Below are positions 35,001-57,285 of a stretch of DNA of 64,000 bases, in pieces. The notes below the pieces were generated by a model. The model had not been told where the DNA came from. It saw only the letters and a program-made list of their open reading frames with translations, and searched no databases. The translations under genes were made by a program, and so were the position numbers. How positions within the stretch are numbered: the first letter of the stretch is position 1; every line of letters starts with the position of its first letter. Origin of the DNA: Eublepharis macularius (taxonomy: Eukaryota; Chordata; Lepidosauria; Squamata; Eublepharidae); contig NC_072794.1 of the NCBI RefSeq assembly GCF_028583425.1, positions 26,843,232-26,907,231 of the forward strand, given 5' to 3'.

Positions 35001-38000
35001 AGCTCAAATCCCAGTTTGCCAAGGACTACTCACTGAATTCATTGGAAAGGTTCACTCTGTGGTGTGATGACCGTGGAAATGGCAAGACCCTACACTGCAA
35101 GAGTAAAACTTGAAAACGGTAACCATATTTGACCAGAGGTTAACAGTGGGACACAAACTCTCCTAATTGTTCTCTCACTCTACTCTCAACCGATCAGTGC
35201 CAAACTGCTTAGAGCTATACCCATTAAGACCTTTTCCAATAAAATAAAGAGTTAAACTATCAAATGGCCTTCTGTGCTCACAGTGTGTGCTATGAAACAC
35301 GGTGCTTTGTCATCATGAAACCATTCTGTGGTAGTGTCATCAGAATCGTAACTTTTCACCACAAAATCAGGATGACTTATACAAACCCCAAAAGAACAAG
35401 AATTCTGGGTTGCCAAGCAACTTAGCAGCTGCCAAGACTTAATTAGAAAAAAAGTTATATTTAACTTAGACTTGAGTAATACCTATTTTAACTGTATTCA
35501 ATCTGCTTTCTCAGCCAGTACAGCGGCTAAGAAAAAATCCAGAGAGTTGCTGTTTTTCTTGGGTGAAGAGATTGCTCTCCCCTTTACAGCTGCTGTCCTG
35601 TACAGCTTTCTTCCCCCTCCCCTCCCTCATCTTTGCTTGGGCCTCATTTCTGTTGTACTTTGCTCACTGACAACCATGTCCAGAATTCCAGTCAAGATAT
35701 TATCTGGGACCTGGCTGTCATGTATCTAAAGATGCATTACAATTCAAATGTTAACAGTGTGTAATCCCATATGAAATGAATGGAGCAGCACATTTTCTAT
35801 CAGGGCCAGAAGGTCCCTTTTGAGACCCAGTTTGGTGTAGTGGTTAAGAGTGTGGGACTCTAATCTGGAGAGCCGGGTCACGGTTCTCTGGAACCCTCTC
35901 AGCCCCACCCACCTCACAGGGTGTTTGTTGTTGTAAGGATAATAATGACATACTTTGTAAACTGCTCTGAGAGGGCATTAAGTTGTCCTGAAGGGCAGTA
36001 TATAAATCGAATGTTATTAGTATTATTTGTTATGTTAACTAGATTCTGCACAATGTGGTGAGGAAATCTTGGGGTGATTCTAGGTTCCTCTATTGCTTTT
36101 GACAATTTTCCTTATAATACAACTTAAGATACACTTTCATTTTTGCTAAACTCAAACTGAGACCAGCACAAACTGCTTTGATAATCAAGATTCAAGTCCA
36201 GTAGCACCTTAAAGACCAACTAGATTTCTAGGGTGTGAACTTTCCAGAGTTACCCACCTGAAACTCCTTTGATAATACCTGTGGTCTCTGCCTCACTCTA
36301 TTTTTTTAAATCCATTTTCTGAGTCTGATGAAAACCTGCTTCTTAACTGAGGACTCCAAAACACCTCGCTAGGTGTCCCGTTTTGAATTGGACAGTTTGA
36401 TACTTGCCTTTTCTGTCAGACAAATACATTCATAAAAGATGTCTGGTATTTTCTAATTTCCATCTGGTTGTGCTGGAGATACAACTTTTCAACCCCTTCC
36501 CCTCTGTCAAATGATAAACTTGTCACAAGGTGAGGGCTTTGAGAGGAAAAAACAAATGTTCAGCGTGATCCACAAAACACCTATAATTAAAAAGCACTGT
36601 TTGAATTCAATACACTGTGTTCCCAAGTCAGTGTGCTTCCAAGGCACGTGTGCCTTTATCTTTTTGGTCTTTGACCGTAAAATAAATCTATCAAGTGTGC
36701 CTTGATATTAATACATATCTTTCCTCTTAGTGCCTACAGTGTTCACATACATGTTTACATAGTTACCTTTAGCACAGGGTAATTAATTTCTATGACTCTA
36801 TTATAGATACTTGAAGATAGAAAGTAGCTCACACAAAATCAGCTCGAGTTGAACTGAGATCTGAACCAGGTACTTCCCTGCAAACATCTCCTGCTTGTAA
36901 CCATTATGCCATAGCAATTTCTAAAACAGCACACTTGACAAAGGCATTCCATCTCATGCATATTTACTTTTCTTTGAGAGCTAGTTTGGTGTGGTGGTTA
37001 AGAACAGTGGGACTCTAATCTGGTGATTCCCCACTCCTCCACTTGAAGCCAGCTGGGTGACTTTGGGTCAGTCATAACTTCCTGGAGCTCTCTCAGCCCC
37101 ACCCACCTCACTGGGTGATTGTTTTGGGGATAACGACATACTTTGTAACCCGCTCTGAGTGGGTGTTAAGTTGTCCTGAAGGGCGGTATATAAATTGAAT
37201 GTTGTTGTTGTTGTTAAAGTCTCTTTGACCTTAATGAGACTTGTTCCCAAATAAGCATGTACAGAGTTGTACCAAAACCTGTTTATAAATAGGTTATTTC
37301 CATCAAAGTCAATGAGATATAGTACTGAATTTAGCTCTGCTCATTTTATGAATAGTTAGGCATGTGCTTTTTTCTAAGAAAGCACAAGAAATGTTGGGGA
37401 AATTGTATCATTCTTTTCATTGCTTATTTTGGAATATCCTACCCTCCGTATCTTTTTGTACACTAGAGATCTTCCTAATTCCAGACGGGTAGCTGTGTCA
37501 GTTTGTTGTAGCAAAACAAAACAGAATTCCAGAGGCACCTTGAAAGCCAACAGCATTTATCCCAGTATGACCTTTTATCCAGAAAATTACAGAAACTGAA
37601 CAAAGAAACATGGGATTATACATCGAGTGTGATTACCCATGCCAGGAACTTGGGCAGCTTCAGTTGTTATACATAACAGGATGAATAATTAAAGTTTCTA
37701 CTTTGTCAGTCAATATCACTTTATGGAAGCCTTTACTATAATGTAGTCAATCAGTTCCCATATTGTGAAGCTTGGGGGTGGGTCAACAACAACTTTCAAC
37801 AAGCATTTCCTGTATTTTTGTTGAAATCCTCTAGCAACCCTAACCCTTGACATCTTTCCTGTGGATTGATTCTGCTCCCCTAGGTGGTCCTGTTAATCTC
37901 TCACATTTTCCTCAGACTGAGCCTCTGCTTGCTTTACTTTTTCACAGTAGATTCCCTTCTGCAAAGTCTCCTCTGGAGGCACAGAACTGAGTTCTGCAAT

Positions 38001-41000: not shown

Positions 41001-44000
41001 AAATAATATAAAAATACCTGCCAAAAAGGAACACGGGGAACTAAATAAAAATCACACTTGTGACACTTAAAAAGCTCAGGGTCTTGCTTAGTTCATTTGC
41101 TTAATTTTATTAAATTAAATCCCTGCTTTGGAGAAAGGGACCTACCTTTTGGATTCTCATTCCTATTCTATTCTATGAGTCCTGGTTGTTTTCCTAGAAG
41201 GTGCTTCCGAATGTTTGTTGTGAGCCACTTTGGTATAGTGGTTAAGAGCACGGGACTCTAATCTGGAGAGCCGGGTTTGATTCCCCACTCCTCCACAAAG
41301 CCAGCTGGGTGACCTTGGGCGAGTCACAGTTCTCTGGAGCTCTCTCAGCCCCACCCACCTCACAGGGTGATTGTTGTGGGGTAATAATAACACTTTGTAA
41401 ACTGCTCTGAGTGGGCATTAAGTTGTCCTGAAGGGCAGTATATAAATCGAATGTTGTTGTTGTTGTTGTTTGGTGGCAACAGGGATAAAGGCAGAGAGTG
41501 GGTACAAAAAGAAATGGACCTGCTGGACATGAACCATTTCATACAGAGGTGTGTACAATTTAACTTGTTATTAAAAGCAAGAGTCCACAAGTTCTGTGTA
41601 ACTGTGATGTGTAGCCCAAACTTCTGGTCTTCAGGACTCCATCTCTCCCCCAAGAAGAGACATGGTCTTCTCCAAGACATCTCTTTGAGCTTCAGATGCA
41701 GTGAGAGTCTTTCACACCTACTGCAGACAGGCAGAGCAGGAATAATTAGATGTACAGATTGTCCACCAGCCATGGTGACTAAAGGGAACCTCCTCATTCA
41801 GAGGCAGTAAGCCTCTGAATACCAGTGCTAGAAGTCAAATTCAGGGAAAGGCCTTGACCTCTATGCCCTGTTGTTGGCCCTCCAGACTAACTTTATGGCC
41901 ACTTTGTGAGGCAGGATGCTGAACCAGATGGGCCACTGATTTGATTCTCATTTATGATTCTCTGTCCCAGGACTGAGTTAATGAGGACCACCCCACCTCC
42001 AAGCTCAGGAGGAGGCCTGGGGCTCGGTACACAGGGTGGGGATGCCCAGTGCACTGTCAGAGCTCTGACTCAAAGAATACATGCAAGGACATGCCTAGTT
42101 TCCTGCTGTGCCGTGTGCAGAAAGATGACGTCAAAGCAATATAACATGTCATCTTGTTCAAAGGCATACTTTTAAGACGCACCTAAAGTTGGCCATTTCC
42201 TGTTCCACAAATTATGTCCTTAAAGTACTACTCAATTTTTCCTCACAGACAAGTAACTCTCGGCAAACCCTGTTAATGTCTGTTCACTATAGAATGCAAT
42301 AGTACTAGGGTTCCCATTTGTCCAAACATTTTTAGTATTGATCAGCAGTTGTTGAACCTATTCCAGTGTCTTATAGTTTGTGAAAAGTTTACTTTCTCTA
42401 CTTCGCCTTTCCTTACTGAACAATGTTCCAACAAGCTTTCTGTGCCAATGAGGAGGTATCTCCTTAGGCATGTGATTATGTACAAAGTGACACATGACCC
42501 ATTACTCTTTAAGCGGACCCCCACAATTTGTCTGTCTACAGTACAGACTACAGACCTGTCTGAGTTACAAAACATGTCTGTCCTACCCACCCCCAAGGAT
42601 CATTCTTCAATGACTGAACACTTAAGCAATGTTTAGAGAACAGAAGGGGTAAAATACCTACCAGCAAACATGGGCTGGTAGAGAGATCCCCAAATTTGCT
42701 TGCTACAAAAAGCATTATCCTTGCTTTCAGAGTCGCCCACCTCTCCTTCTGAGCTTGGTGCCAGGGGTGGTAGCTGCATTGGCCTTTGAAAGCACTCTAA
42801 GAACTTCTAACAATCAGCACACTGAGGAGAGTTGCTCCCCTGCTTGGGAGGCTTGCTCCCAGTATCATTCTGGGCACAGTCCCAAGAACATGTACAACCT
42901 TATTACTGGTGGGGGTGGTGGAAAGTGCCATCAAGTCACAGCTGACTTACAGCAACCCCTGCTGCAGCTTTCAAGGCAAGGGACTAACAGAGGTGGTTTG
43001 CCATTGCCTGACTCTGCAACCCTTGCCCTCTCTGGAGGTTTCCTCTCCATTTACTAACCCAGGCCGACCCTGTTTAGCTTCTGAAATATGAGATGAGGCT
43101 TCCCTGGGTTATCGAAGTCAGAGTACAACATTTTATAAGGACTAATTTTGCACAAAACTGTGCAAGCTTTCAAGTTCACCAGAACTCTTCATCAGGCAGG
43201 ATATTTGGTTTTTTTGAGAGTTCTCATGAGCTTTGAAACTCGGTCCTAATAAAATATATTAAATGGTTTTTGCTTCAGACTGATGGGGCTGCCCTACAAC
43301 TTGATTTCTGAACTGTGGAGGCACTTTGGTTGCCTCTAAAAAGAGCACAGTATCAGAGACAACACCCCAGAGCCAACTAGCTAAAAATTTTGGCTGGTTT
43401 CCAAGGCCAATCAAAATTTCCGAACCCGTTAGGTAACAATTTCTACACTACAATGCGATGAGGGAGGGGTACTGATTTACATTATGGACACTTCAGATGG
43501 AAATGGATGTCTTCACTCTTCCTCTACCCACAAAAAGAATCCCTACAGTATGTTTGCCACAACAATTGGGAAAAAAGAACGTGGAGTCTCACACAGGAAA
43601 TGTGGTTGAGGGGCCAAGGACTCTTTCTACTAGTTCTCCACTGCAAATTTCCCCCACGTCTTTTCACAATGGGGACGTGGCAATAAAGGCTCTTGGCGTG
43701 GTGTGTGGCCAGTGGTGTATAGTTCTACTCTCTGATTGTAATACCAAAAATATTTAAATTTAGGGAGGCATGAGAACATACATTCATATTTTGCACACAG
43801 AAAATCCTAGGATCGAATCCAGCCATTTTTTCTACTGAATCTTACCCAATTCCTCTACTTAACACAGCCCCCATCCCAAATGGCCTTTTGGGTGGTTAAA
43901 AGAGAGAGACACTAACTTTTCCACCAGAAAAAAAAACCTGGTTAGATCTGACCCCTAGATTCAATCCCTGTAATCTTCTTTTTAAAGGGCCTCAGATAGT

Positions 44001-45658
44001 TGGGCCAGGAAATATCTCTGCCTGAGTCTTTAGAGTGCTGCAGCCTGACTGGATTAGATACTCCAGCGCTGTAACTCAATAAAAAGGCAGCGTAACAGAA
44101 TTTGCTCTTTTGAGTATGCAAATAGCACTGCACACCAGATTTCACTCAAGAGCTCAACTCAGAACCAAAGCATGAGGCAGCAGGGGAAATCAGGGGTACC
44201 AAGAGGGTGACTGAGCCATGAATTTCTATCTTAAGCAACTAAGGTTCATTCATTTTACAGCATTGGCTTTTGAGGAATTCAGCATCTTTTTCAAGGCTGT
44301 CTCATTTCTCATTCAACAGAGACAGCAGTGCAAGGCTGTGTTGTTTAACCAGCTTTTTTTCTGATTTGGTTTCCATCATGTTAGTGTTTGAACATCTTAG
44401 GTTTGGGGTTGGTTTCTAAATCTGTTTTTATCATAAGCCACTTTGAAAAGTGAGGAAAAGTGTGTATAGAAATATAGTAAATAAACTATATTTATATAGG
44501 GGAAGAGAAAAAGCAGAACTCAACCAGTTCTGGGACCAGGCAACACATTTAGACCTCGCTTATAAAAGGAATATGGACATTGTCCCTTGCAGTTATAATT
44601 TATAAAAGGAACACAGCCCTAGAACTGGATAAATCCTGTTCTGAAGAATGACATGTAACATACATCATAATATATGTAGGAACTCCTACCCTCACATCAG
44701 CAAAAACTGAATATAAAGCAAATATAGCAGCCAGCTGATGCAAGCCCAACCAATTTTACAAAGAAAATTACATCTAGCCACCTTTTTCTTCATTAGCTTT
44801 TAAGAAAGGGAGCACAGACCTCTTCTTTAAACAGAACTTTCATGATCCAAACCAGGCATATACGCAAATCTGGTTATAACAAACTTAGAGGCAAATGCTT
44901 ACCTATAACCTGCCTCATCGGCAGCAGGGGGGGGGGGTTGGTGGTTATTTTTATTAAGTTTATCTTTTTTAATTGGATTATTAATGGACTGTCTAAAAAG
45001 TAGGATAGCGTTTTTCTGGCAAATCACTAAATGGCTGGGAAATGCAGGAAGAAAAGACAGAGGAAGAATGAAGTTGCATTCAGAAGGGAAACTAAAGCAG
45101 CCAGCACTGAGGTGCCTAACAATAGCTGCCTTCTTGGCCTCAACTTTTCCTCACAGAGGGAGATAAAGAGTCAATCATTCATAAAACATGGCACTTGTGT
45201 TTGTAACACTACAGAACGACCGAGAGTAACCTCCTCCGGGAATTACAAGGACCCCTACAGACGCAAGAATACAAGTAAAAGATCCCACATGCTTTCTTCA
45301 AGGTGGATTAGTCACTCGGCTGAAATTCACCACTATTTGAGGCAAGGCATCTTCCAGGACCTATGAGACACACCCGAGCGCATTATTCTTAGCATGACAC
45401 CAGCTCACCTAAAAACTCTGGAATGTTTAATCATAGGCAGATGTAACTGGTCTAATGAATGGACTGACTTGTAAAACCAACCCAGATTTCTTTAGGCGAA
45501 TGTAACTTTACTGTATGAAGTCGTTATGGAAAAAACGTACCATTGCTGAATTTTGAGAATGACCAGTCTTCCTCATGCCTCCGTGACACATCGTCCTTCT
45601 CTGTGGTGCTGTACGCAGATCGGCGATTCCGTACAGAGATATTGTCTTCACCCACCAT
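4986..45658 (-). CDS. SOAT1: SOAT1, sterol O-acyltransferase 1 (15 coding exons)
   Basis: This enzyme of the ER membrane (MBOAT family) joins a long-chain acyl-CoA to cholesterol to make cholesteryl ester. Coding pieces in order are 45541-45658, 32388-32446, 26480-26622, 26330-26389, 24237-24344, 22007-22289, 20681-20759, 19572-19653, 16143-16188, 14080-14209, 12705-12802, 8542-8640, 7113-7248, 6413-6558 and 4986-5042. They sum to 1644 bases, 547 residues plus stop, all GT-AG with agreeing phases; human SOAT1 has 550. Visible motifs are FYKDWWN (residues 400-406), RTWN with the active-site Asn at 418, AAVHEY with the catalytic His at 457, and the C525/C543 pair matching the human C-terminal disulfide. 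The sequence follows SOAT1 as I recall it, including the MVGE start and PTFLDY...PRSWTC end; SOAT2 fits less well. The exon number (16 with the non-coding first) matches human. No break is seen. Confidence 0.97.
5331..5491 (-). repeat. Copy of short inverted-end repeat (AGGGTTGCCAAC family)
   Basis: Degraded minus-orientation copy. Key phrases on the plus strand are CCACCCTCCAGAGTTGCCAT, TTCTCCAGGCAAACTGATCT and ATTCTGGGAGATCTCCAG. The same family occurs at 9675-10040, 34116-34323, 39251-39472 and 51438-53597. Its ends (AGGGTTGCCAAC / GTTGGCAACCCT) are inverted repeats, suggesting a non-autonomous DNA transposon. Confidence 0.6.
5641..5703 (-). repeat. L2/CR1-like 3' tail fragment
   Basis: Reads TAGTCTGCCTTTCTCATTGA then GGTGGATTACA, the reverse of the usual 'gtaagccgccttgag...gaaaggcggactata' LINE-type tail, with an ATTATT microsatellite at its start. 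Confidence 0.5.
5705..5942 (+). repeat. tRNA-derived SINE (family C)
   Basis: The head has an A-box-like GTAGCATAGTGGTG and a B-box-like AAGTTTGAATCCC. The body reads CAGGTGGCCTTGGGTAAACC and the tail ACCACTCTGAGTGTGTCCAG then AAGGGTGGAATACAAGCAC. A second copy of this subfamily is at 38180-38400. It lies in SOAT1 intron 15. Confidence 0.7.
5943..6412. other. Rest of SOAT1 intron 15, no feature seen
   Basis: AT-rich single-copy-looking intron sequence up to the exon 15 donor. No repeat or RNA gene is recognised. Confidence 0.5.
6413..6558 (-). CDS. SOAT1: SOAT1 exon 15
   Basis: 146 bases encoding [20 protein letters not shown] then [20 protein letters not shown] and AHRYCPLKN, to residue 529. 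Cys525 is the first partner of the human C-terminal disulfide. The donor GTAAGT follows AAT directly; reading through gives a short non-homologous tail, so the splice is preferred. Confidence 0.97.
7113..7248 (-). CDS. SOAT1: SOAT1 exon 14, catalytic histidine
   Basis: 136 bases encoding [20 protein letters not shown] then [15 protein letters not shown] and on to FLFMFFG-type membrane helix, residues 436-480. His457 in AAVHEY is the MBOAT catalytic histidine (human His460). Acceptor CACCCCTCCAG, donor GTAAGT. Confidence 0.97.
7795..8022 (-). repeat. tRNA-derived SINE with L2-like tail (family A)
   Basis: Antisense-reading copy: the tail (ATTTAATTTATATGCTACCC, CTCAGAGTGGTTTACAAAG) comes first on the plus strand, then the body (GAGATGGGTGGGGCTGAGA) and the tRNA-like head (GAATCAATCCCAG, CTCTTAACCACTA). 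This is the most common SINE in the window. Confidence 0.85.
8220..8410 (+). repeat. tRNA-derived SINE (family B)
   Basis: Head GTGGCTCAACAGTAGAGCAT (A box) and ACAGGTTTAATCCCTAG (B box), then a body AGGTGACGTTAAAGACCTCT. Other copies are at 14221-14425, 18905-19125 and 26055-26180. Confidence 0.75.
8542..8640 (-). CDS. SOAT1: SOAT1 exon 13, DWWN and RTWN motifs
   Basis: 99 bases encoding [20 protein letters not shown] then [13 protein letters not shown], residues 403-435. Asn418 of RTWN corresponds to active-site Asn421 in human. The last residue is Gly where human has Trp (DFLW); this depends on placing the donor as GGG|GTGAGC, which is the only GT giving the right phase. Confidence 0.96.
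8775..8900 (+). mobile_element. Partial hAT-type fold-back element
   Basis: Starts CAGGGCTTTTTTCCTGGG AA and continues GAGGTGGTGGAACTC, matching the terminal arm of the complete element at 59332-59589. It contains its own short palindrome GTCACTTCCAGGAAGTGAC. The other end is not clearly found. Confidence 0.55.
8985..9150 (-). repeat. 5S-rRNA-derived SINE
   Basis: The plus strand reads the tail first (GTGCCGTCAAGTCACAGCCA, ACAGAGGTGGTTTGCCATTG) and then the reverse of a 5S gene core (CAATTACTAACCAAGG, GACCCTGCTTAGCTTCTGAG). In 5S rRNA this is AGCTAAGCAGGGT...TGGTTAGTA. Copies also at 42905-43090 and 56990-57185. Confidence 0.8.
9675..9819 (-). repeat. Inverted-end repeat copy (AGGGTTGCCAAC family)
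   Basis: Minus-orientation copy with GGTGGACTCTATGG, TTCTCCAAGGGAACTGATCT and ATAACCCTAC. A further plus-orientation fragment of the same family is at about 9580-9630, so copies are nested or rearranged here. Confidence 0.55.
9820..10040 (+). repeat. Inverted-end repeat, near full length
   Basis: Begins GGGGTTGCCAACCTTCAGGT and ends CCCAGAGTTGGCAATCCTAC; the two ends are inverted relative to each other. The middle has ATAGCTGCTTTGGATGGTGG. It sits head to head with the copy at 9675-9819. A non-autonomous DNA transposon is the likeliest class. Confidence 0.65.
10041..12704. other. SOAT1 intron 12, remaining sequence
   Basis: Mostly unassigned AT-rich sequence. It holds a fragment ending in AAAAAAAGGCCTG near 10760-10852 that looks like the end of the hAT fold-back family, and the LINE tail at 11940-12095. 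No other structure is recognised. Confidence 0.45.
11940..12095 (+). repeat. L2/CR1-like LINE 3' end
   Basis: Ends GTGACCCACCCTGAGCCCAC, TTGTGGGAAATAAATCC and a CAAA repeat, the usual form of a squamate LINE 3' tail. It carries no open reading frame. Confidence 0.6.
12705..12802 (-). CDS. SOAT1: SOAT1 exon 12, start of FYxDWWN motif
   Basis: 98 bases encoding [20 protein letters not shown] then [12 protein letters not shown], residues 370-402. The FYK at its end is the first half of the FYxDWWN signature, thought to shape acyl-CoA binding. Acceptor CTTCCCCAG, donor GTAATC. Confidence 0.97.
12803..14079. other. SOAT1 intron 11, no feature seen
   Basis: AT-rich intron without recognisable repeat, RNA gene or conserved open frame. 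Confidence 0.5.
14080..14209 (-). CDS. SOAT1: SOAT1 exon 11
   Basis: 130 bases encoding [20 protein letters not shown], then [20 protein letters not shown] and ILPG, to residue 369. Human: [20 protein letters not shown]. Acceptor CACCTGCCCAG, donor GTGAGT. An antisense-lying SINE (14221-14425) ends 11 bases upstream of the exon. Confidence 0.96.
14221..14425 (-). repeat. tRNA-derived SINE (family B) abutting exon 11 acceptor
   Basis: The head is at the right (reverse of GACTGAACCTGGGACCACC, CTACCACTTAGCCATAGCCC). The 3' tail (GCTTCATGTGTT on the minus strand) ends at 14221, only 11 bases before exon 11. The branch-point region for exon 11 must therefore lie inside SINE sequence. Confidence 0.75.
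14426..16142. other. SOAT1 intron 10, remaining sequence
   Basis: Unassigned intron sequence. A weak fragment at about 15275-15350 (TATAGCACCTTAAAGATTAG, CATAAGCTTTACTGAAGGG) belongs to the Penelope-tail family described near 49905. Nothing else is recognised. Confidence 0.45.
16143..16188 (-). CDS. SOAT1: SOAT1 exon 10 (46 bases)
   Basis: It encodes [15 protein letters not shown], residues 312-326, matching human NPTVRWGYVAMKFAQ. Acceptor TCTTTCATGCAG, donor GTTAGT. The exon is very short, and an L1 copy ends only about 75 bases upstream of its acceptor. Confidence 0.95.
16262..17564 (-). mobile_element. 5'-truncated L1 LINE with target-site duplication
   Basis: The minus strand carries the C-terminal part of L1 ORF2: [20 protein letters not shown], then [28 protein letters not shown] and further on QKWKSTEST...EDWIMKM. 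A 3' UTR and a T run on the plus strand (16271-16278) follow. The 14-base target duplication CAAAACCTATTTTT is seen at 16262-16275 and 17551-17564. The L1 is interrupted by the hAT element at 16744-17139 and lies about 75 bases upstream of SOAT1 exon 10, in the sense of the gene. It has lost its 5' part and is inactive. Confidence 0.88.
16744..17139. mobile_element. Non-autonomous hAT transposon inside L1
   Basis: 396 bases, starting CAGGGGCGGCGCAAGGG and ending GCGCCGGCCCTG, flanked by the 8-base direct repeat CATATAAA (16736-16743 and 17140-17147). An 8-base duplication and CAGGG...CCCTG ends are hAT traits. It is GC-rich and CpG-rich in an AT-rich setting, with an internal palindrome TGATGTCACATGTGACATCA. 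It encodes no transposase. The L1 reading frame resumes on each side, so it inserted after the L1. Confidence 0.88.
17565..18900. other. SOAT1 intron 9, left unassigned part
   Basis: No gene, RNA or clear repeat recognised between the L1 and the SINE at 18905. Confidence 0.45.
18905..19125 (-). repeat. tRNA-derived SINE (family B)
   Basis: Plus strand reads tail to head: GGACTGAATCAGACCCTCAG, GTCAGTATTGCTTACTCGGC, then TATTGAACCTGGGACC and GCTCTACCACTGAGCCATAC, the reversed B and A boxes. Confidence 0.8.
19572..19653 (-). CDS. SOAT1: SOAT1 exon 9
   Basis: 82 bases encoding [20 protein letters not shown] and then YRDEYPR, residues 284-310. It matches human [26 protein letters not shown]. Acceptor CCTTTTCAG, donor GTAAAA, the weakest donor of the set. 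Confidence 0.96.
19870..19945. mobile_element. Small inverted-repeat element (GCAATCCTAAGCAGA family)
   Basis: Ends GCAATCCTAAGCAGAATTAC and GAACTCTTTAGGATGGCAGT are an inverted pair. A cleaner copy is at 63710-63797 and another at 24938-25023. Confidence 0.5.
20236..20460 (-). repeat. tRNA-derived SINE, MIR-like (family D)
   Basis: Plus strand shows the reversed form: CTGCAAGGTAGCCTAGGCTG, GGCCCAAGATCTCCCAGC, ATTCAGACCTGGGCCTCCCA and TCTAACCACTACACTGCAC. Lies in SOAT1 intron 8, directly followed by a second copy. Confidence 0.65.
20461..20655 (-). repeat. tRNA-derived SINE, MIR-like (family D), second copy
   Basis: Contains GGATTTGAACTTGGGTCCCC and AGATTCTAATCTGATGCC in reverse orientation, next to the previous copy. 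It ends about 25 bases from the exon 8 donor at 20680. Confidence 0.6.
20681..20759 (-). CDS. SOAT1: SOAT1 exon 8
   Basis: 79 bases encoding [20 protein letters not shown] and on to PQKT, residues 258-283. The MKAHSFxREN block is nearly invariant in SOAT1. Acceptor CTCGGCAG, donor GTGAGT. Two antisense SINE copies lie just beyond the donor (20236-20655). Confidence 0.96.
20830..22006. other. SOAT1 intron 7, no clear feature
   Basis: AT-rich sequence between exons 8 and 7. Overlapping open frames at 21160-21440 on both strands show no family resemblance and no splice context, and are not called. Confidence 0.45.
22007..22289 (-). CDS. SOAT1: SOAT1 exon 7, membrane core
   Basis: 283 bases, the longest coding exon, residues 163-257. 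It reads [16 protein letters not shown], then [14 protein letters not shown], and ends [13 protein letters not shown], very close to human SOAT1. It holds two or three hydrophobic spans of the MBOAT core. Acceptor TTTCTTTAAG, donor GTACGT. Confidence 0.97.
22606..23239. mobile_element. Fold-back element with ~150-base inverted arms
   Basis: Left arm (22606-22772) begins GCAGAAAAGAGAAGTTTCCC and ends TGCTAATTAGCTCC-type sequence; the right arm (23094-23239) is its near-perfect reverse complement, ending GGGAAACTTCTCTTTTCTGC. The left arm has about 18 extra bases (near 22650-22667). The loop is about 320 bases with no coding potential. A 15-base direct repeat CAACTACACACTCCT lies at 22553-22567 and 23239-23253, directly at the right end but about 40 bases before the left end. 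Lies in SOAT1 intron 6. The superfamily is not identified. Confidence 0.75.
23254..24236. other. SOAT1 intron 6, remaining part
   Basis: Nothing recognised apart from a TG microsatellite at about 24121-24135. Confidence 0.45.
24237..24344 (-). CDS. SOAT1: SOAT1 exon 6, first membrane span
   Basis: 108 bases. It encodes [20 protein letters not shown] and on to DFIDEGR, residues 127-162, containing the first hydrophobic membrane helix ([18 protein letters not shown]). Acceptor CTTCTTCCTCAG, donor GTAAGA. Open frame continues upstream of the acceptor, but that sequence does not match the family. Confidence 0.96.
24938..25023. mobile_element. Small inverted-repeat element copy
   Basis: Ends CAGTGCCATCCTAGGCAGAG and CAACTCTGCTTGGGATTGCA are an inverted pair of the family also at 63710-63797. 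It lies in SOAT1 intron 5. Confidence 0.6.
25024..26054. other. SOAT1 intron 5, remaining part
   Basis: No gene or repeat recognised. A 154-residue open frame starting at 24935 runs through here; it begins in the small repeat, resembles no family and has no splice or promoter context. Confidence 0.45.
26055..26180 (-). repeat. tRNA-derived SINE (family B), partial
   Basis: Reversed head: GGGATTGAACCTGGGACC and CTCCACCACTAAGCCACACC; upstream TCAGACCCTTGGTCTAC from the body. Confidence 0.7.
26330..26389 (-). CDS. SOAT1: SOAT1 exon 5
   Basis: 60 bases. It completes the Lys codon and reads [20 protein letters not shown], matching human [20 protein letters not shown]. Acceptor TTCCACAG, donor GTGAGT. 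An AG two bases further in could also be used as acceptor but would break the frame. Confidence 0.95.
26480..26622 (-). CDS. SOAT1: SOAT1 exon 4
   Basis: 143 bases between acceptor TTTTACTAG and donor GTATGT. It encodes [20 protein letters not shown] and on to DVYKAK, residues 60-106, matching human LKPFFMKEVGSHFDDFV. The second half is divergent, as in other vertebrates. Only 90 bases separate it from exon 5, the shortest intron in the gene. Confidence 0.95.
27295..27360 (-). repeat. L2/CR1-like tail fragment
   Basis: TTTATTTATTTAGAATATTT, CTATGCCTCCTTTTCAGAG and GAAGAGGCTTTCAATTAAAG. The same fragment recurs at 59225-59330. Confidence 0.5.
27665..27687. repeat. (CA)n microsatellite
   Basis: Eleven or so CA units in SOAT1 intron 3. 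Confidence 0.9.
27858..28830 (-). repeat. GC-rich insertion of unknown class (possible solo LTR)
   Basis: Nearly 1 kb with high GC content and abrupt edges in an AT-rich intron. The minus strand has a TATAAAAG at about 28163-28170 and ends with GCCCTGACA, which would suit a solo LTR with its promoter, but no matching start, flanking duplication or internal region was found. Long open frames on both strands (up to 268 residues) are Pro/Gln/Gly-rich and resemble nothing known. If it is an LTR, it is a lone, old fossil. Confidence 0.35.
28831..31020. other. SOAT1 intron 3, middle part
   Basis: Mostly unassigned. A fragment at 29210-29330 (GGGGCATAAGCTTTCATGAG, GGCTCTAGCTCACAACAGC) is a rearranged piece of the Penelope-tail family. 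A G run is at about 29615. Confidence 0.45.
31026..31577 (-). mobile_element. Short Penelope-like element copy with inverted ends
   Basis: The minus strand encodes [20 protein letters not shown] then [20 protein letters not shown], a pattern typical of the C-terminus after the GIY-YIG domain in Penelope-like elements. About 32 bases at each end are inverted copies (GGTTGTTGTGGGTTTTCC at 31028 and GGAAAACCCACAACAACC at 31558-31575). The minus strand also holds a hammerhead-like half, CTGAAGA...GGCGAAACGTC, at 31086-31116. It lacks the reverse transcriptase part and belongs to a different family from the element at 60430-63470. Confidence 0.7.
31770..32012 (-). repeat. tRNA-derived SINE, MIR-like (family D), degraded
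   Basis: Reversed features: TTTTCTCCTCACAACAGCCC, TGTAAGGTAAGTTAGGCTG, ACTAGGCCAAGGTAACCTAG and CTGAGGTACTAACCACAT. Confidence 0.6.
32388..32446 (-). CDS. SOAT1: SOAT1 exon 3
   Basis: 59 bases, acceptor TTTTCTCTTAG, donor GTAAAC. It encodes [20 protein letters not shown], like human [20 protein letters not shown], ending at residue 59. This is the cytosolic helix that in the human enzyme supports tetramer formation. It is too short to stand out as an open frame and was found by its splice sites and homology. Confidence 0.92.
32862..33105 (-). repeat. tRNA-derived SINE with L2-like tail (family A)
   Basis: Full-length reversed copy from ATAACAACATTTGATTTATA to CTCTTAACCACTCACTAAAC. In SOAT1 intron 2, about 400 bases upstream of exon 3. 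Confidence 0.85.
34116..34323 (+). repeat. Inverted-end repeat (AGGGTTGCCAAC family)
   Basis: Begins TAGGGTTGCCAACCTCTAGG and ends CCCTGATCTGGCAACCGTA; body GGAGAAAATGGCTGCTTTGG. Near complete, plus orientation. Confidence 0.65.
34349..34605 (-). repeat. tRNA-derived SINE with L2-like tail (family A)
   Basis: Very well preserved reversed copy with AACAACAACAACATTTG at the tail and CTTAACCACTACACCAAACT at the head. Immediately followed by the fold-back element at 34618-34736. Confidence 0.88.
34618..34736. mobile_element. 119-base MITE with 42-base inverted arms
   Basis: Left arm 34618-34659 (GGGCCAAGCCACAAGTGACG ... GGCAAGTG) and right arm 34694-34735 (CACTTGCC ... GTAGCTTGGCCC) are reverse complements with few mismatches around a 34-base loop. 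It has no coding capacity. A clear target duplication is not visible. Confidence 0.75.
35821..36028 (+). repeat. tRNA-derived SINE (family A)
   Basis: Plus copy: CAGTTTGGTGTAGTGGTTAA (A box), GGAGAGCCGGGTCACGGTTC (body shortened after the B box) and the tail GCAGTATATAAATCGAATG. Confidence 0.82.
36187..36255 (+). repeat. Penelope-tail family fragment
   Basis: GATTCAAGTCCAGTAGCACC, TTAAAGACCAACTAGATTTC and GGGTGTGAACTTTCCAGAG. It has the same order as the 56673-56720 arm. Confidence 0.5.
36976..37217 (+). repeat. tRNA-derived SINE (family A)
   Basis: GAGAGCTAGTTTGGTGTGGT through CCCACTCCTCCACTTGAAGC to GAAGGGCGGTATATAAATTG with a GTT repeat tail. The B-box segment is partly deleted. Confidence 0.82.
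37475..37600 (+). repeat. Penelope-tail family fragment, degraded
   Basis: GGTAGCTGTGTCAGTTTGTT, GCAAAACAAAACAGAATTCC, AGAGGCACCTTGAAAGCCAA. It corresponds to the 'tagtctgtagtagcaaaacagaattccagaggcacc' form of the family. Confidence 0.45.
38180..38400 (+). repeat. tRNA-derived SINE (family C)
   Basis: GCCTAGTAGTTTAGTGGTTG (A box) and GCTAGTTCGAATCCCACTAC (B box, close to a tRNA consensus), body GCAGGTGGTCTTGGATAAGC, tail GAAGAGTGATATATAAGCAC. Confidence 0.75.
39251..39472 (-). repeat. Inverted-end repeat (AGGGTTGCCAAC family)
   Basis: Reversed copy: GCGTTGCCAGCTACAGCTTG at the left and TTGAGGATGGTAACCCTACA at the right, with GGAACTGATCTCTGTAGGCC between. The 153-residue open frame across it is not a gene. 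Confidence 0.55.
39473..41218. other. SOAT1 intron 2, unassigned part
   Basis: AT-rich sequence with a LINE-type tail near 40320-40385 (GTAATCCACTTTCAGTGAG then GAATGAATGAAATAAAG). No gene is recognised. Confidence 0.4.
41219..41470 (+). repeat. tRNA-derived SINE (family A)
   Basis: GAGCCACTTTGGTATAGTGG, GGAGAGCCGGGTTTGATTCC, tail GGGCAGTATATAAATCGAAT followed by a GTT microsatellite. Confidence 0.88.
41797..41960 (+). repeat. Interspersed repeat (AGCCTCTGAATACCAGTGCT family)
   Basis: AAGCCTCTGAATACCAGTGC, GACCTCTATGCCCTGTTGTT and CCAGATGGGCCACTGATTTG. The same family recurs at 56893-57285, where it is split by a 5S SINE. It is probably a LINE/SINE 3' region; the name is unknown to me. Confidence 0.6.
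42905..43090 (-). repeat. 5S-rRNA-derived SINE
   Basis: Plus strand: AGTGCCATCAAGTCACAGCT (BovB-like tail), AACAGAGGTGGTTTGCCATT, then CATTTACTAACCCAGGCCGA and CCCTGTTTAGCTTCTGAAAT (reversed 5S core). Confidence 0.78.
43130..43250 (-). repeat. Hammerhead-like repeat copy
   Basis: The minus strand reads CCTGATGAAGAGTTCTGGTG then AACTTGAAAGCTTGCACAG: CTGATGA (43189-43195), a 6-bp hairpin GAGTTC/GAACTT, then GAAA (43168-43171). This is the half-core of a hammerhead ribozyme, known from Penelope-like elements. A further hairpin TTGCAC/GTGCAA follows. The other strand segments of the ribozyme are not assigned. Confidence 0.55.
43251..45540. other. SOAT1 intron 2, part next to exon 2
   Basis: AT-rich, with one LINE-type tail near 44430-44495 (CATAAGCCACTTTGAAAAGT, ATAGAAATATAGTAAATAAA). 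Nothing else is recognised. Confidence 0.4.
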
Positions 45659-45674
45659 GATAACAGACTTAACA
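45541..45674 (-). CDS. SOAT1: SOAT1 exon 2, start codon exon
   Basis: The acceptor CCTTATAG ends at 45675, followed by 16 bases of 5' UTR and then ATG at 45658-45656. It encodes residues 1-39, beginning [17 protein letters not shown], which aligns with human MVGEEKMSLRNRLSKS. The exon ends AAT G before the donor GTACGT. This is the poorly conserved cytosolic N-terminus. The reading frame is open a little upstream, but that extension runs into the intron, so the MVGE start is chosen. Confidence 0.93.
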
Positions 45675-48329
45675 CTATAAGGGCAGAGGGAAGGATAAAA
45701 ATAATTGGTTAGCAATTAACATCCATACAGATAACTGTTCTTCAACACACTGTATTCTACTTTCAAGGCCGTTAAGAATATTTCAAGAACTCCATTTTTA
45801 AAGCAAGTTTCTAACCCTCATGCATTTTTAAACGCACCGCTTACAATATTCAGTGAAAACACTTTTCAATTAGAGGGTGGGGGTTCTTGGTTTTGAACAA
45901 TTTTTTTCTCCCGAATTCAAATTGGCTCTTAGGGAAAGTTAGTTACAATGGTAACAGACCCATGTACTAGAATTCCGTTGACACTAATTTCCTATAAAAT
46001 GGAGGGGTGAGGGTTAAACCACAGCCGGGCAAGAGAGTGTGCTGAACCCATCTTCTAATTCCACTTCCTTCCCCCCAGGCACTTGCCACCCAAAGGTGCA
46101 TTCTGAACTTGGCAAGGGAAAAATGAATAGAAAAAATGGGGGAAGGGGGAATGCAGGCAGAAGAAAAGTTCAGCATTGCCCTCTTGTGTTTAACTGCTTT
46201 CCATCTACTTTGTAAGAAATGGGGGGGAGGGGTGTTCCTTTTCTTTCTCTCTCTTATATACAACAGTTCTCTGTCAGGGTTAAGTTAAAGTCCAAAAAAC
46301 GTAACACTGATCTGAGTTGTACTAGAACAGCAATGTTTGGGAAAATTTTGTTGCCGGGTCTTTTTCCTTGGGACAGAATGTGCCTAAATTAAACACAAAC
46401 ATCCTGACTCATCAAAACAGAAAGCTGTTAAACATTCACCAACAACACCCTCCCCACACACATATTTAGGTGAAACCATCAGAGATGCCAGTTCTACACA
46501 CCACTCTCATTTCACTAGTGAAAAACTAAGGCTGAAAGCACTTCATCTCGCCTAAGATTACCCAAGCAGTGTTCCAGTCTCAGTGAAATGTACGCACTGC
46601 CTAAGAATTGTGTTTGAGATGACATTGGAGGATTTGAAAGTATTACCTGTGGCGATTTATCTGTCACGGTGCATTCACAAAGACAAAGGACCACTTGAGG
46701 TTTACGTACCTCCTTAAGTTGTTTTAAATGCCTATATCCTGCCTTACCCTAAAACTGGGATTAAGGCATCTTGAAACCCATAATTAAAAACAGTAAAAAC
46801 ACTGAGTGCTAAAACCACAAAACAATAACACAATCAGTATCAACATTAACTTCAACTTGAATGCCATTAAAAGCACTTGCAAACAAAACAGCTTTGTATT
46901 TCTTTTAAAAGATATGCAGACAATAGGACTTCCTCATCTCCTCTGGTATCCCATTCCACAAGATGGACAATAGGGGGAAAGTGTGAGCTTTGGCAAAGGA
47001 TGAGTGGATGAGTCCTGAGCCAGAGAATGGTGAAAGGAAACAGACCTGAGAAAAAATGATGTGCCAAAGGCCATTTAGTGACTTTATGACAAAGGAGAGA
47101 CTCAGACAGAAGATATCCCAACTCAAAGCTTAGTTTCTTTGCCACAGCATTACATTGGCTCTCCTTATGACTTGGTAGTCTCCAAGCACTCCCCTTTTAA
47201 TATCTCCCATAAACCAGCAGCTGTTTTCTCCTACATAAAAAATGAGGGGACGGTATTGTAATGGGAAACAAACCAACTGGCAGATACAGGAAGGCCTGGT
47301 CTCTATTGAGAACGGGCCCCATGAAAGGATGCTGTGTGTTTCTAAAGACTGTATTTCCTCAGGGCTCTCTGCAGTCTTGTGGGGGCGGGGGGGGGGCTCC
47401 CCACCAGACATCGTGTTAGCAAACAGCAGAAACACCAATTAATATGGTATGCAGTTTTAACTCTGGAAGCACTAGCTCAAATCTTGCTAATGTATCTGGG
47501 GCATCAGCACTTGCCCGAGTTGTGAGGATCATTTAGACGGCCTTCGGTTTCTAGGTACTCTGTTTCAACTGACCACGACTGTCTCCTCCTGATGATACCG
47601 TCCACAACTACACACAACCAGGATGTTAATCCTTACTGGTGTATACATTAGGAGTGTTTAGTTAAGTGAAGGCTTGTACATTCACCTTTCCACTTGTGGC
47701 AAACAAGCATTATACCCAGATGATCAAACAAGGAAGCTTTAAAGAAACAGTGATGTGATGCAATTTACTAAAAGATGGGTGTGCAGAGCGACTTGTTAAA
47801 AATGCTGGATTTCTGTGGGATAGTTGACAAGACTGCAGCAAACAATACCGTAGGCATCACTCCTGTTATCGGAAAATCCTCTCTAGCAAACAAAGCCATA
47901 CGTCAAAACATCTAATAGGGGCTTTGCAGTGGCTGCATTCAAAATATCATGCCAAGAGCACATTAAGCCTGAATGTGCATGAACCCTGGATATTGCCCGG
48001 TTGGCGTGCACACCTCCCACTCCTCACTTATGCAGAGGGCAATGAAGGAATTCTAGTTTGTAGCTCACTCTAGTTACCTGAAACGTATGAATGCCGGTGG
48101 CCTTTAAACAGTTAGTTTCTCCACACATAAGCAGACATTCTGGCAGGAGGGAAGTGGCTCACCGCTTCAGGACAGCAGCAGTGGAGGTCTGTCTGGGCTA
48201 ACTTTCTCCCTCCACTTTCCGCAGATATTTAAATTGGGTGGGGCTAGCTCTTGGCCCTTCTTACCCTGAGGCTCATCATGACCTGTGAAAACCATTTTGC
48301 CAGATCTCTGGATTAGCCAGATTTTTTTT
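45675..48329. other. SOAT1 intron 1, part next to exon 2
   Basis: No gene seen. A degenerate interspersed repeat of unknown family at about 46715-47060 contains ATGCCTATATCCTGCCTTAC and CTGGTATCCCATTCCACAAG. A G run is at about 47380-47395. Confidence 0.4.
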
Positions 48330-48400
48330 TTGCTTTTGTAAGCCACTTTGGATCTTTCTGGGGAGAAAAGTAGCCTAAAAATGTGCAAATAAATAACATT
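48330..48400 (+). repeat. LINE-type 3' tail
   Basis: TTTTGTAAGCCACTTTGGAT, TTTCTGGGGAGAAAAGTAGC and GTGCAAATAAATAACATT. Confidence 0.55.
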
Positions 48401-48551
48401 CTAAGCCTGGATTAAACCCAGTTTATGTGTTTGGGGCGGGGGAGAGCATAAGGTTTGGTTAAAATGAGCAGCAGAATGAGGGTGTTAACTAGGTGGCAGA
48501 ATAGTCTGTATTGTTTTAGAAAACAGATGAGGAATTATATTTTCAAAGCTC

Positions 48552-48640
48552 CTCAACAGGACTGGAGTCCAGTGGCAACTTAGAAACCAACAAGATTTTC
48601 ACAGGGAAAGCAGCTGAGAGACAGAGCTCCCTTCTTCAGA
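48552..48640 (-). repeat. Hammerhead-like / Penelope-tail repeat copy
   Basis: The minus strand gives GTCTGAAGAAGGGAGCTCTG then TCTCTCAGCTGC and later ATCTTGTTGGTTTC, TAAGTTGCCACTGGACTCC. CTGAAGA and the stem (GGGAG with CTCTC, partly wobble) are present; the GAAA block is changed. Confidence 0.55.
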
Positions 48641-49904
48641 CAGCTTCCTGACATTGCTGTAATGATTCCTCTTAAACAGAAAAAAAGCACAGCATCACAA
48701 GAACCAAAAACTTCCTTTTGTTATGCGTAGGGTGTTTTTACAAGGAGGAGCACTGAAAATGCGATTCTTCCCACCTTACAGCCTGAAGTGGTATGACCCA
48801 TTTTACCACCACCTCATTCTGCCACATGAAAAAGCCTAACTCCGGTTCAGCTGCACACCTGGCATTCACAGGTGAACTGGGGTTAGTTTTATGCTAAGAT
48901 TCCTTTCATTGCGCACCATGCAAGATGGGTGAGGAAAGTAGAAACAAGGGGCACATGCAAGCGGAGCAACAAGCCAGGTTCAGGCCAAACACTTCCTCTG
49001 AATGTAGCCCATTTATGAATATTAACTATCTATTTTTAGGGAAAGAATGTTTGACTTTTTATTAAAGGCATACACAAACCCATTTTATAACCTATGTCTG
49101 CTTTTGATTTTATTGGCTTTCTTGCTCTTTAAAGTGTCTTTTACGGTTATCACAAATTATTATATTATTGCATGTGATTAAAGTAGCAATTTAGCTGGTA
49201 TGAATCCTATTACAGCTTTTATATTTTTTTCTATTAGGATTCAATGCATAGCATACCTGCTGCACAGGTCTTGACTGTTTCCTGAAGAACTGCAAACTGC
49301 ATTGGGAATTTTCTTATACTATTGTTGAACTTTCTTGGGCTTTGTCCTTTGTATTTTTATCACCAGTAGGAGCAGCAATACCTGTGTTTACAGTGCAAGC
49401 CTAAGCATAGGATTGCGCTGTCAATCACTGCTTCTAAAATACAATGAATGATACTTTAAAAACACTGAAATAATTGTGTGCTCAATCACTAACCAGACAT
49501 AGCCCACTTCACTGAGATCAGAGCCAAGTCTGCCTGATGACAAGAAGAAGAAAAAAAATCACAGATCATCAACAAGGAACTTGTTTAAATAAGGTTGTGT
49601 TGATCAACTGTGCAAACTTGTTTGAAACAAAAAAAAATACCCCCACACTACCAAAAGGGAAGGAAGGCTGCCTTACACTCAGGAAAATTACCATCCTGAT
49701 CAAGCAAACAGGCCAATCCTTTGACCCCTTTTCATGCTAATCAGTAGCCCCTTTTTCCAGGTTTCCTTCTGGCTACAAGTTAAACAGGTCCTTCCTGCCA
49801 CACCCTAAACTTCTTTCTTTTAGCAGACTTGCTGCAGCTGTTCACCTGCAACCTTTACTCTGTTCTAATCAGTAATCATTCACAGTCTTTCTAGACTCAT
49901 GCAT

Positions 49905-50080
49905 CTGAGGAAGAGAACTGTGATTCTCGAAAGCTTATAGTACAGAAAACTTGGTTAGTCTTAAAGGTGCTACTGGACTCGAAAGCTTATAGTACAGAAA
50001 ACTTGGTTAGTCTTAAAGGTGCTACTGGACTCTTTTCTATTTTGCTACTACAGACTAACACGGCTAACTCCTCTGAGTCT
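49905..50080 (+). repeat. Hammerhead-like repeat with 52-base tandem duplication
   Basis: CTGAGGA (49905-49911), a 5-bp hairpin GAGAA/TTCTC, GAAA (49929-49932), then GCTTATAGTACAGAAAACTT, GGTTAGTCTTAAAGGTGCTA, CTGGACTC. The block 49929-49980 is repeated perfectly at 49981-50032. It ends GCTACTACAGACTAACACGG, as in other copies of this squamate family. The organisation resembles the ends of Penelope-like elements, which carry hammerhead ribozymes. Confidence 0.7.
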
Positions 50081-53597: not shown

Positions 53598-55066
53598 CCA
53601 CAGATGCTTATATACATACATCTGCTCATTTATGTGTAAGCTATTTTAGCATCGGTGCTCAAACTGATATCTGCGTTCTTCACATCTTTAACATTTGAAA
53701 AATGCATGCAGAATGTGTATTTGATTTTTAAAGTGACTGTTACACTTTCTGTTCCATATTACCCTCCACAGGGAACACGTTACAGACAACAAGCCACTCA
53801 GTTCTGAAAATCCACCATACTTTAAACTTGCTAAAGTCACCGGACTGTTTCACGTTAAAAAACAAAACAAAACAAAACCAGTTATTTATATCAGATTTAA
53901 ATCACAAATACCCCATTTGTACTTCAGGGGGTCCCTAGACCAGTTTAGAAGCAAATAATGAGAGAATCTCACAATCTTTTTAGTAGGATGGGAGGAGCTG
54001 ATCAGGTAGATAAATAAACTGAAATGTCAATCATTAACACATGTTTATTTTAGAATATCATGATTATGCTTTATGGCATTATAAGGATAAACATGTTTGT
54101 AGTAAGTTCAAGTGTCATTTTACACCAAGTTCCTTTATTTAAAAATCAATCCTTTAAAAAAAAATTGAATCAAGACTTCCCCCCACATTCAGGTCTACTG
54201 ACTCCTTGGGTGAAAATGCCTGCTTTCTTCTTGATGTGTAGCCACTCACTACCTAAAGCCCATCACATCTTTCTCCAAACTTAGCTCTCCTACTGGCTAT
54301 CCTGACACCGAGCACAATGTTTTCCACAGATAAAGCATCCCCGAGTTATGAAACATTTCTTGGGCTTGCTTCTATCACAAGAACCAAAGCCTCACAATCC
54401 TTTTTATACTTGGGTTACAAAACCTTTCTAAAGTTCAGAACAAAGTTTCGTAACCAAAGGCAGCTTTGGTCAACAGTCTTGACCAAGCTGGTTTAGGAAT
54501 TCGTAAGACACTGAAAGCTGTGATAAGAAGGCTGCCTTTTGCAAGATATAAATTTTACACACTTGCATATTAAAAATGTTAATATTCACAAAAAACACTC
54601 AGAAACAGAAAAGTTTCTATATGGGAAAAACAAAACAAAAAGCTGCCATTTGAACATGACTGCCCTATTGCAATCTGTGTGTTTTCCAATATAACACATC
54701 TGTATGCCTAATAGGTATCTGCTATCCTACAAAAAAGGTTCCTCCTTATCACAATCTGTTTTTTCCTCCCTGACATTTCTGCCAGCATCCAAATTGCATA
54801 AGAAGCTCAAAGGAGGCACTCAGAAAAGCAAGGGAGCAGAAAGAGTTAACAATTAACAGGTGCCATGTGATCAAACCACTAACAGAACTGAGGTGGTTTA
54901 ATTTGGGAACAAGACAGAAATTTGCTTTCTGTGCCACTGGGACCTTCAATGCCGTCCATAGAGATAGATCATGAAAAATGGGATTTGCATCAGAAAGAAC
55001 CTCGAAATAGGGAAGGGAAAGAAGGCAGGAAGCATCTAGGAGAAGCAAAAGTCACCAGGAGGCTTG
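53598..55066. other. SOAT1 intron 1, unassigned part
   Basis: AT-rich sequence between the BovB and the fold-back at 55067. No repeat or gene is recognised. Confidence 0.45.
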
Positions 55067-55200
55067 AAGAGCAAGATTCGGGTCCAGCAGCACCTTAAAC
55101 ATCAACTAGATTCTCAGGGTATGAGTTTTACCTTTTAGCTCAAAGTGAGCTTTTAATACCCTGAAAATCTGGCTGGTCTTTGGACCCAAATCGTGCTCTT
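55067..55200. repeat. Inverted dimer of the Penelope-tail repeat
   Basis: Arm 55067-55122 (AAGAGCAAGATTCGGGTCCA, GCAGCACCTTAAACATCAAC, CAGGGTAT) faces an inverted arm 55155-55200 (ATACCCTGAAAATCTGGCTG, GTCTTTGGACCCAAATCG, TGCTCTT). The short centre holds GAGTTTTACC and GCTCAAAGTGAGCTTTT. Confidence 0.65.
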
Positions 55201-56672: not shown

Positions 56673-56856
56673 AGAGCAAAGTTTGGGTCCAGTAGCATCT
56701 TAAAGGCCAACTAGATTTCCAGAGCCTGCGCTCTTTTTATCAGATTAAAAGCTCCTTTTCTCAGATATCTCATTAAGGTAGCTCTGACTCTCGAAAGCTC
56801 ATACCCCGGAAATCTAGTTGGTCTCCTAAGGTGCTACTTGAGCCAAATCTTGCTCT
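56673..56856. repeat. Inverted dimer of the Penelope-tail repeat
   Basis: Arm 56673-56720 (AGAGCAAAGTTTGGGTCCAG, TAGCATCTTAAAGGCCAACT, AGATTTCC) and inverted arm 56808-56856 (GGAAATCTAGTTGGTCTCCT, AAGGTGCTACTTGAGCC, AAATCTTGCTCT). The centre keeps GCTCTGACTCTCGAAAGCTC, which is the stem-GAAA part of the hammerhead-like unit with its CTGANGA eroded. It lies about 150 bases upstream of the CpG island. Confidence 0.7.
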
Positions 56857-56892
56857 TCAACCGACCAACATGGCTACCTGTCTGAAACTATC

Positions 56893-57285
56893 ATTATACA
56901 GAGCCAGCAAGCCTCTGAATGCCAGTGCTAGCACGTGGCATTAGGCGAAGGCCTCTATGTCCTGTTGGCCAGCCCCCCCTCCCCCCAGTGGCCCAGGTGA
57001 GCCTGATCTCATCAGATCTTGGAAGCTAAGCAGGGTTGCTCTTGGTTAGTAATTGGATGGGAGGCCTCCAAAAAATACCAGGGCTGCAGAGGCAGGCAAT
57101 GGCAAGCCACCTCTGTTAGTATCTTGCCATGAAAACCCCACCAGGGGTCACCATAAGTCAGCTGTGACTTGACGGCAATCTACACCCCCACCAGGGCAAC
57201 TGGTTGGCTATTGTGTGAAACTAGTGCTGGACTAGATGGACCACTGGTCTGATTCAGCAGGGTTCTTAATGTTCTTATGACATAA
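56893..57285 (+). repeat. Interspersed repeat split by a 5S SINE
   Basis: Left part AAGCCTCTGAATGCCAGTGC ... CTCTATGTCCTGTTGGCC and right part GGGCAACTGGTTGGCTATTG, CTGGACTAGATGGACCACTG, GGTTCTTAATGTTCTTATG. The same family is uninterrupted at 41797-41960. Confidence 0.65.
56990..57185 (+). repeat. 5S-rRNA-derived SINE, best copy
   Basis: 5S-like core CCTGATCTCATCAGATCTTG, GAAGCTAAGCAGGGTTG (box A), TTGGTTAGTAATTGGATGGG and AGGCC (box C region). The body reads GCAATGGCAAGCCACCTCTG, and the tail GGGTCACCATAAGTCAGCTG then TGACTTGACGGCAATC. The tail matches the 3' end of the BovB at 53514-53545, so BovB-type reverse transcriptase probably moved it. Confidence 0.85.

Follow-up and report, generated by a model that had tools for sequence, protein, structure and literature searches.

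Dispersed repeats with minimal hammerhead motifs in Eublepharis macularius: probable decayed ends of Penelope-like retroelements

Introduction

Do dispersed repeats that carry part of a hammerhead ribozyme descend from retroelements that bore the whole motif, and was it self-cleaving RNA that spread them? The question is raised by a stretch of 64,000 nucleotides of the Eublepharis macularius genome (hereafter the window; contig NC_072794.1, positions 26,843,232 to 26,907,231), in which several repeats show CTGANGA, a hairpin, and GAAA, the larger half of a hammerhead. A first-pass annotation of this DNA had derived the repeats, as a family resembling short interspersed nuclear elements (SINEs), from the ends of Penelope-like elements (PLEs), and had suggested spread by self-cleaving RNA. 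We consider it highly probable that at least two kinds of hammerhead-bearing PLE left these repeats as their decayed ends, and that in the live ancestors the motif lay at the junction of the pseudo-long terminal repeat (pLTR). The proposed hammerhead and Penelope origin is supported: the full motif can be assigned, and some copies are accompanied by coding remains that look PLE-like, by target duplications, or by a tail. The present copies are fossils or marginal, and most are visibly damaged.

The hammerhead motif

Four half-cores named in the first-pass annotation were confirmed by direct reading: CTGAGGA..GAAA in copy c1 (49905-49932, +), CTGATGA..GAAA in c2 (43195-43168, -), CTGAAGA..GAAA in c3 (31116-31086, -), and CTGAAGA with a hairpin in c4 (60510-60487, -), from which GAAAGC is missing. 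The stems quoted for them (GAGTTC/GAACTT, GAGAA/TTCTC, and GTGAGC/GCTCAC) are correct, and stem II of c3 has a single internal A-C mismatch. Two eroded copies had also been listed. The one at 48639 (-), here c5, is present, but the GAAA that completes its bare pattern is non-homologous in our hand alignment; the one at 56781-56797, here c6, is present but longer, extending over 56766-56803 (+).

By itself, the bare CTGANGA..GAAA pattern is a weak signal that is mildly above chance (13 matches in the window versus 7.24 expected, with at least 13 in 3 of 100 shuffles), as it would be if hairpins had arisen by chance near CTGANGA in unrelated repeats. Half-cores whose stem II has at least 3 pairs number three, versus 0.40 per shuffle (three are reached in 1 of 200), and all three continue into a palindromic stem III, a UH cut site, and stem I. 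Specifically, in c1, c2, and c3, GAAA is followed by G-C or C-G, U, and a non-G base, after which the cut is predicted. The resulting AGCU or ACGU palindrome, which includes the last A of GAAA, makes a 2-bp stem III with zero loop, and the bases after the cut form stem I with those preceding CUGANGA (2, 3, and 3 pairs in c1, c2, and c3, respectively).

Because the first-pass annotation had left stem I, stem III, and the cut site unassigned, these parts serve as an independent test, and all of them can be assigned in c1, c2, and c3. The palindrome with UH is found three times in the window versus 0.025 per shuffle; with a stem I of at least 2 pairs it is still found three times, versus 0.005 per shuffle, and 0 of 200 shuffles reach three; with at least 3 pairs, it is found twice versus 0 in 200 shuffles. 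These counts for the full motif, the equivalent placement of c1, c4, c5, and c6 in homologous ends, and the pairing of stems I and II described below all oppose chance hairpins, which we regard as exceedingly improbable.

The copies differ in completeness. CUGANGA, stem II, and GAAA are intact in c1, c2, and c3, and the core of c6 has eroded to CTCATTA. The palindrome followed by H is kept in c1, c2, c3, and c6; c4 retains UC only, and the cut base of c5 is G. Stem I has 2, 3, 3, 3, 1, and 3 of three possible pairs in c1 to c6. The best preserved copy is c3, with a GUC site and one stem II mismatch; c1 and c2 have CUU sites and a short stem I. All six rows have one extra base between CUGANGA and stem II, a departure from the strict textbook core; a viroid with an additional nucleotide in the core is reportedly the subject of a paper cited in PMC6155905.

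Compensating changes in the stems

The six copies were aligned by hand, with c5 and c6 realigned by homology, and standard pairs were counted over cells (rows times the three pairs of stem I and six pairs of stem II), with 5000 permutations of the 3' partners as the null. The hand alignment was used because three MAFFT alignments (A1, A2, and A3), which were set aside, misplaced gaps or letters. Over both stems and six rows, standard pairs fill 46 of 54 cells, and changes on both sides are seen at 7 of 9 pairs; neither value is reached in any of the 5000 permutations. Without c3, the values are 38 of 45 cells and 5 of 9 pairs (reached in 6/5000 and 5/5000). Stem II alone has 26 of 30 paired cells (9/5000) and double changes in 3 of 6 pairs (70/5000) in the five rows without c3, and 31 of 36 (2/5000) and 3 of 6 (120/5000) in six rows that include the inverted c6 copy. 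When stem II is slid by 1 to 3 pairs, paired cells number at most 17/30 in the five rows and 20/36 in the six. The compensating changes claimed earlier are borne out for stems I and II together, but are less striking for stem II alone. The paired changes support the hammerhead fold, and they suggest that the fold, beyond the sequence, was kept while the elements were active.

Links among the copies

A profile model built from c1, c2, and c6 (R1) was run with filters off on both strands of the window. It recovers these three copies, then c4, which is outside the model (E = 0.00017), and a half-core absent from both the model and the first-pass annotation, which is the inverted partner of c6 (E = 0.0029); c5 follows at E = 0.33. 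The total is 22 rows at E <= 10. The remaining 16 begin at E = 0.48; two of them fall in known copies (the c1 duplication and tail copy A), and the others we take for noise. By blastn in the window, c4 matches both c1 and c5; c1 in turn matches c5, c6, and each of four tail copies (A-D); and by both methods c1, c4, c5, and c6 occupy the equivalent place in homologous ends. It is by architecture and visual reading that c2 and c3 are joined to the c1 family; the core of c2 can be aligned, and on inspection its tail seems related.

Probable Penelope-type remains and target duplications

Copy c4 terminates a decayed element that bears reverse transcriptase (RT) and spans 60.4-63.4 kb on the minus strand. 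One RT remnant of this element reaches the Pfam cut-off (Table 1); among the PLE-like remains, IIYIIKCPCNLLYVG and C-terminal motifs of a putative endonuclease were read by eye. Of the other three pieces searched in Pfam, one matches RVT_1 at E = 0.062 and also draws an unrelated row, another matches only an unrelated restriction enzyme (E = 0.028), and the third has no match. In the PDB, a search up to E = 1 with the 96-aa RT piece gave two weak matches, to a retron RT (0.45) and to a bromodomain (0.99); with the 69-aa endonuclease piece there was no match up to E = 10. Upstream of the c4 hammerhead lies a TATA-like stretch, AGATATAAGG (60538-60547, -), as expected of pLTR promoters.

The c3 insertion is bounded at both ends by a 13-bp target duplication (ATGATTTCTGAAG) and includes an inverted tail on the plus strand, c3b (~31545 to 31609), which reaches ~31 nt beyond c3. 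Upstream of its hammerhead, a 155-aa frame ends in a putative endonuclease remnant read by eye, whose C-terminal motif we take to be PLE-like; a PDB search with P0001 (31192-31659) gave no match up to E = 10. A TATA-like stretch is again found upstream of the hammerhead (AGATATAAATG, 31179-31189, -), as expected of pLTR promoters. A hammerhead-bearing pLTR, a ~30-bp tail, head-to-head ends, and a target duplication all occur at c3/c3b, and c6 shows head-to-head ends and a duplication. An optional 31-bp tail and head-to-head inverted pLTRs are described for PLEs in PMC3846280, whose rotifer examples have duplications of 8-10 bp, whereas those in this window are 10-16 bp.

By analogy of architecture, c3 is assigned to the published Poseidon family. 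In Poseidon of Anolis carolinensis (PAc), C3 and G8 of the hammerhead precede the ATG and the cut lies 26 bp after the start codon (PMC11167929); in c3, the ATG is at 31110-31108 and the predicted cut is likewise 26 nt past it. Compared by description and not by sequence, the two also share the tail, which is 30-40 bp in PAc (PMC11167929), and an AC-rich segment close to the copy end. They differ in that c3 is 5'-truncated and decayed and ends ~86 nt into the open reading frame (ORF), whereas PAc reverse transcription mostly starts at 111-118.

Target duplications were scored as the best stretch shared near both ends of a copy, with 1000 random placements as the null. Both c3 and tail copy A score 13 (A with one mismatch), c1 scores 12, c6 scores 10, and D scores 9; the values for C, B, c5, c2, and c4 lie between 5 and 7. 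Among random placements, 0.9 per cent attain a score of 10, 0.3 per cent a score of 12, and 25 per cent a score of 7. A score of at least 10 is thus seen in 4 of 10 copies versus 0.9 per cent of random placements, some of the duplications having been noticed by eye before the score limits were set.

Copy c1 measures 180 bp, is flanked by a 12-bp target duplication, and has its 5' end 9 nt ahead of CUGANGA, which would suit a SINE-sized family made of hammerhead and tail only and spread by self-cleaved RNA with PLE enzymes. Metazoan non-LTR retrozymes of this sort are published: according to PMC7229834, they have type I hammerheads and short units (~170-400 nt), with PLEs suggested as their machinery, and in amphibians stem III is short and cleavage is more efficient in dimers. 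Those retrozymes are tandem units, whereas the copies here are dispersed, with target duplications, and have PLE-like coding remains at c3 and c4. Moreover, c1 is the only such unit in the window, and a single copy is no proof of a family; the other copies begin at varied points or are head-to-head PLE ends, as 5' truncation predicts; and insertion in vitro is independent of cutting (PMC11167929). Spread of such a family by self-cleaved RNA is very unlikely in our view. We also hold it unlikely that c1 is one of many hammerhead and PLE-tail units whose 5' ends sit at a fixed place close to the hammerhead instead of resulting from random truncation, which would make it a retrozyme of reptiles mobilised by Penelope enzymes. 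The short copies in the window fit truncated PLE ends.

Table 1. Hammerhead copies, associated Penelope-like remains, and tail copies in the window
Feature	Position	Strand	Description
Three intact half-cores	49905; 43195; 31116	+; -; -	pattern whose stem II has at least 3 pairs
c1 insertion	49896..50075	+	hammerhead and tail, internal 52-bp tandem duplication, 12-bp target duplication AGTCTTTCTAGA at 49884 and 50076
c1 minimal hammerhead	49902..49939	+	stem I CAU/AUA (2/3), CUGAGGA+A, stem II GAGAA/UUCUC, GAAA, GCUU; predicted cut after 49936
c2 minimal hammerhead	43161..43198	-	stem I UGC/GCA, CUGAUGA+A, stem II GAGUUC/GAACUU, GAAA, GCUU; predicted cut 43164/43163
c3 minimal hammerhead	31079..31119	-	stem I CCU/AGG, CUGAAGA+U, stem II, GAAA, CGUC; predicted cut 31082/31081
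c3 head-to-head Poseidon-type insertion	31025..31609	-	endonuclease C-terminus, pLTR, hammerhead, and tail on -
c3 PLE-like endonuclease C-terminal remnant, 27 aa	31384..31464	-	by eye
c4 hammerhead remnant	60480..60515	-	stem II GUGAGC/GCUCAC, stem I UAU/AUA, GAAAGC missing; 3' end of probable PLE
RT remnant with YVDD of c4 element	61728..62015	-	Pfam RVT_1, E = 7e-07, 29.6 bits, equal to the cut-off
GIY-YIG-like endonuclease remnant of c4 element, two frames	60819..61200	-	by eye
Further decayed N-terminal and RT pieces of c4 element	62052..63384	-	by eye; none above Pfam cut-off
c5 eroded hammerhead	48606..48644	-	retains CTGAAGA + A + stem II; GAA lost, H17 = G
c6 head-to-head insertion, two inverted ends	56678..56894	+	10-bp target duplication TATACAGAGC
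c6 hammerhead remnant	56766-56803	+	retains CTCATTA, stem I, and GAAAGCTC
c6 inverted half-core	56748-56707	-	R1 match
Tail copy A	36178..36253	-	target duplication AAACT[G/C]CTTTGATAAT
Tail copy B	37482..37551	-	blastn
Tail copy C	55064..55129	-	blastn; inverted partner near 55150-55190 by eye
Tail copy D	59625..59697	+	blastn

Other repeats in the window

The tandem duplication of c1 (49929-50032, +) starts at the hammerhead GAAA, and CTC ends the stretches preceding both of its units, as a template jump would leave. The c6 insertion is a long inverted repeat and draws a weak Rfam mir-559 score (E = 0.2, far under the cut-off), which is likely a false call. Other microRNA models match well under their cut-offs at 63709-63798, 4266-4356, and 51938-52103, two of the three on both strands, and these stretches are probably foldback repeats. 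Beside PLE ends lie a SINE-like copy derived from 5S rRNA that passes the Rfam 5S cut-off (56975-57094, +) and another recognised by its similarity to it (43050-43110, -). Matches over the Rfam tRNA cut-off at 19053-19124 (-) and 26110-26181 (-) are probably tRNA-derived SINEs.

Discussion

Several results weigh against deriving the repeats from hammerhead-bearing PLEs. A match to the Rfam hammerhead models had been proposed as a check, and there is none in the whole window, either at the gathering cut-offs or up to E = 10, nor in three short stretches searched separately. Stem I is only 2-3 bp long in the intact copies, and GAAA is wholly or partly lost in c4 and c5. The aligned rows are few and mutually related, and their pairing counts are not a formal covariation test; taken alone, the double changes in stem II are less striking, at the frequencies given above, and sliding the stem by 3 yields equally many. 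Among the 22 R1 rows in the window, c3 does not appear, and by blastn up to E = 0.05 in the window, neither c2 nor c3 links to the c1 family. Pfam gives no match for the c4 endonuclease remnant and only one unrelated row below the cut-off for that of c3, and only one of the four RT and N-terminal pieces of c4 reaches the cut-off. No second hammerhead turned up at the 5' end of that element, R1 included.

Might the hairpin have been retained for another job, such as PLE protein binding or a start site, in families that never cut RNA? The CUU cut sites of c1 and c2 are compatible with this, as are the single-strand folds, which do not form the full hammerhead, and Anolis Poseidon can insert in vitro without hammerhead cutting, whereas it does require the first 172 nt of ORF RNA (PMC11167929). 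However, the palindrome, UH, and stem I adjoin all three intact half-cores, as a hammerhead needs, in an arrangement rare among the shuffles (0.025 and 0.005 per shuffle), and its Anolis counterpart reportedly cuts once protein is supplied (PMC11167929). We judge another job quite unlikely, and favour decayed ends of PLEs that carried a hammerhead.

In each live ancestor, the boundary between a pLTR and the next unit would have carried a minimal type I hammerhead, in the order stem I, CUGANGA with the extra base, stem II, GAAA, a 2-bp palindromic and loopless stem III, UH, and cut. Because stem III lacks a loop, a single motif is unlikely to fold by itself; a pair of motifs, supplied by one tandem transcript or by separate RNAs, would join via their palindromes and cut as a dimer, perhaps aided by the element's own protein. 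Tandem copies would be transcribed through in live elements. New copies would arise from an endonuclease nick and an internal start of reverse transcription, and insertion would leave target duplications of 10-16 bp, inverted ends lying head to head, and in some cases a tail of ~30 bp. Dimer cutting, help from the protein, and a role for cutting are parts of this scheme that we infer. When five stretches were folded, the predicted dimer energy was below twice the monomer energy in all five; these energies are not used as evidence because the folds are not the full hammerhead.

The suggestion that self-cleaving RNA spread the repeats is weakened by published work: the Anolis Poseidon motif cut in vitro only with protein, and mutants that do not cut were still inserted (PMC11167929). 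We therefore think that cutting would be incidental or come late, and that something else would drive the spread.

Minimal hammerheads in PLEs, Anolis included, are already published, and the kind is known. Minimal type I hammerheads of PLEs are said to have been treated by Cervera and De la Pena in 2014 and by Lunse, Weinberg and Breaker in 2017. According to PMC6155905 and PMC7761336, PLE hammerheads have no helix III, may cut as dimers, and have an unknown role. The copies here resemble the published ones in having virtually no helix III, in their pLTR location, and in presumed dimer cutting, a comparison made through reviews. No treatment of the c1, c2, and c4 families was found in the literature searched, which excluded the 2014 and 2017 key papers and Repbase, where they may be covered. 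Exact-pattern scans for the repeats gave 0 hits each in a viral contig and a genome contig collection, and a text search of papers for repeat strings listed ones whose titles concern unrelated topics. As for hosts, a passage of a 2018 review of human repeats gives Penelope as not reported in amniotes (PMC5753468), and a 2024 Anolis paper lists reptiles among Penelope hosts (PMC11167929); a squamate host is consistent with the match of c3 to Poseidon.

The dispersed repeats of this window would thus be fossil Penelope-like ends, whose hammerhead copies the Rfam models miss. With the 5' ends of their copies compared to the predicted cut site, the short families to which these copies point could be used to probe the unsolved role of the hammerhead in PLEs.
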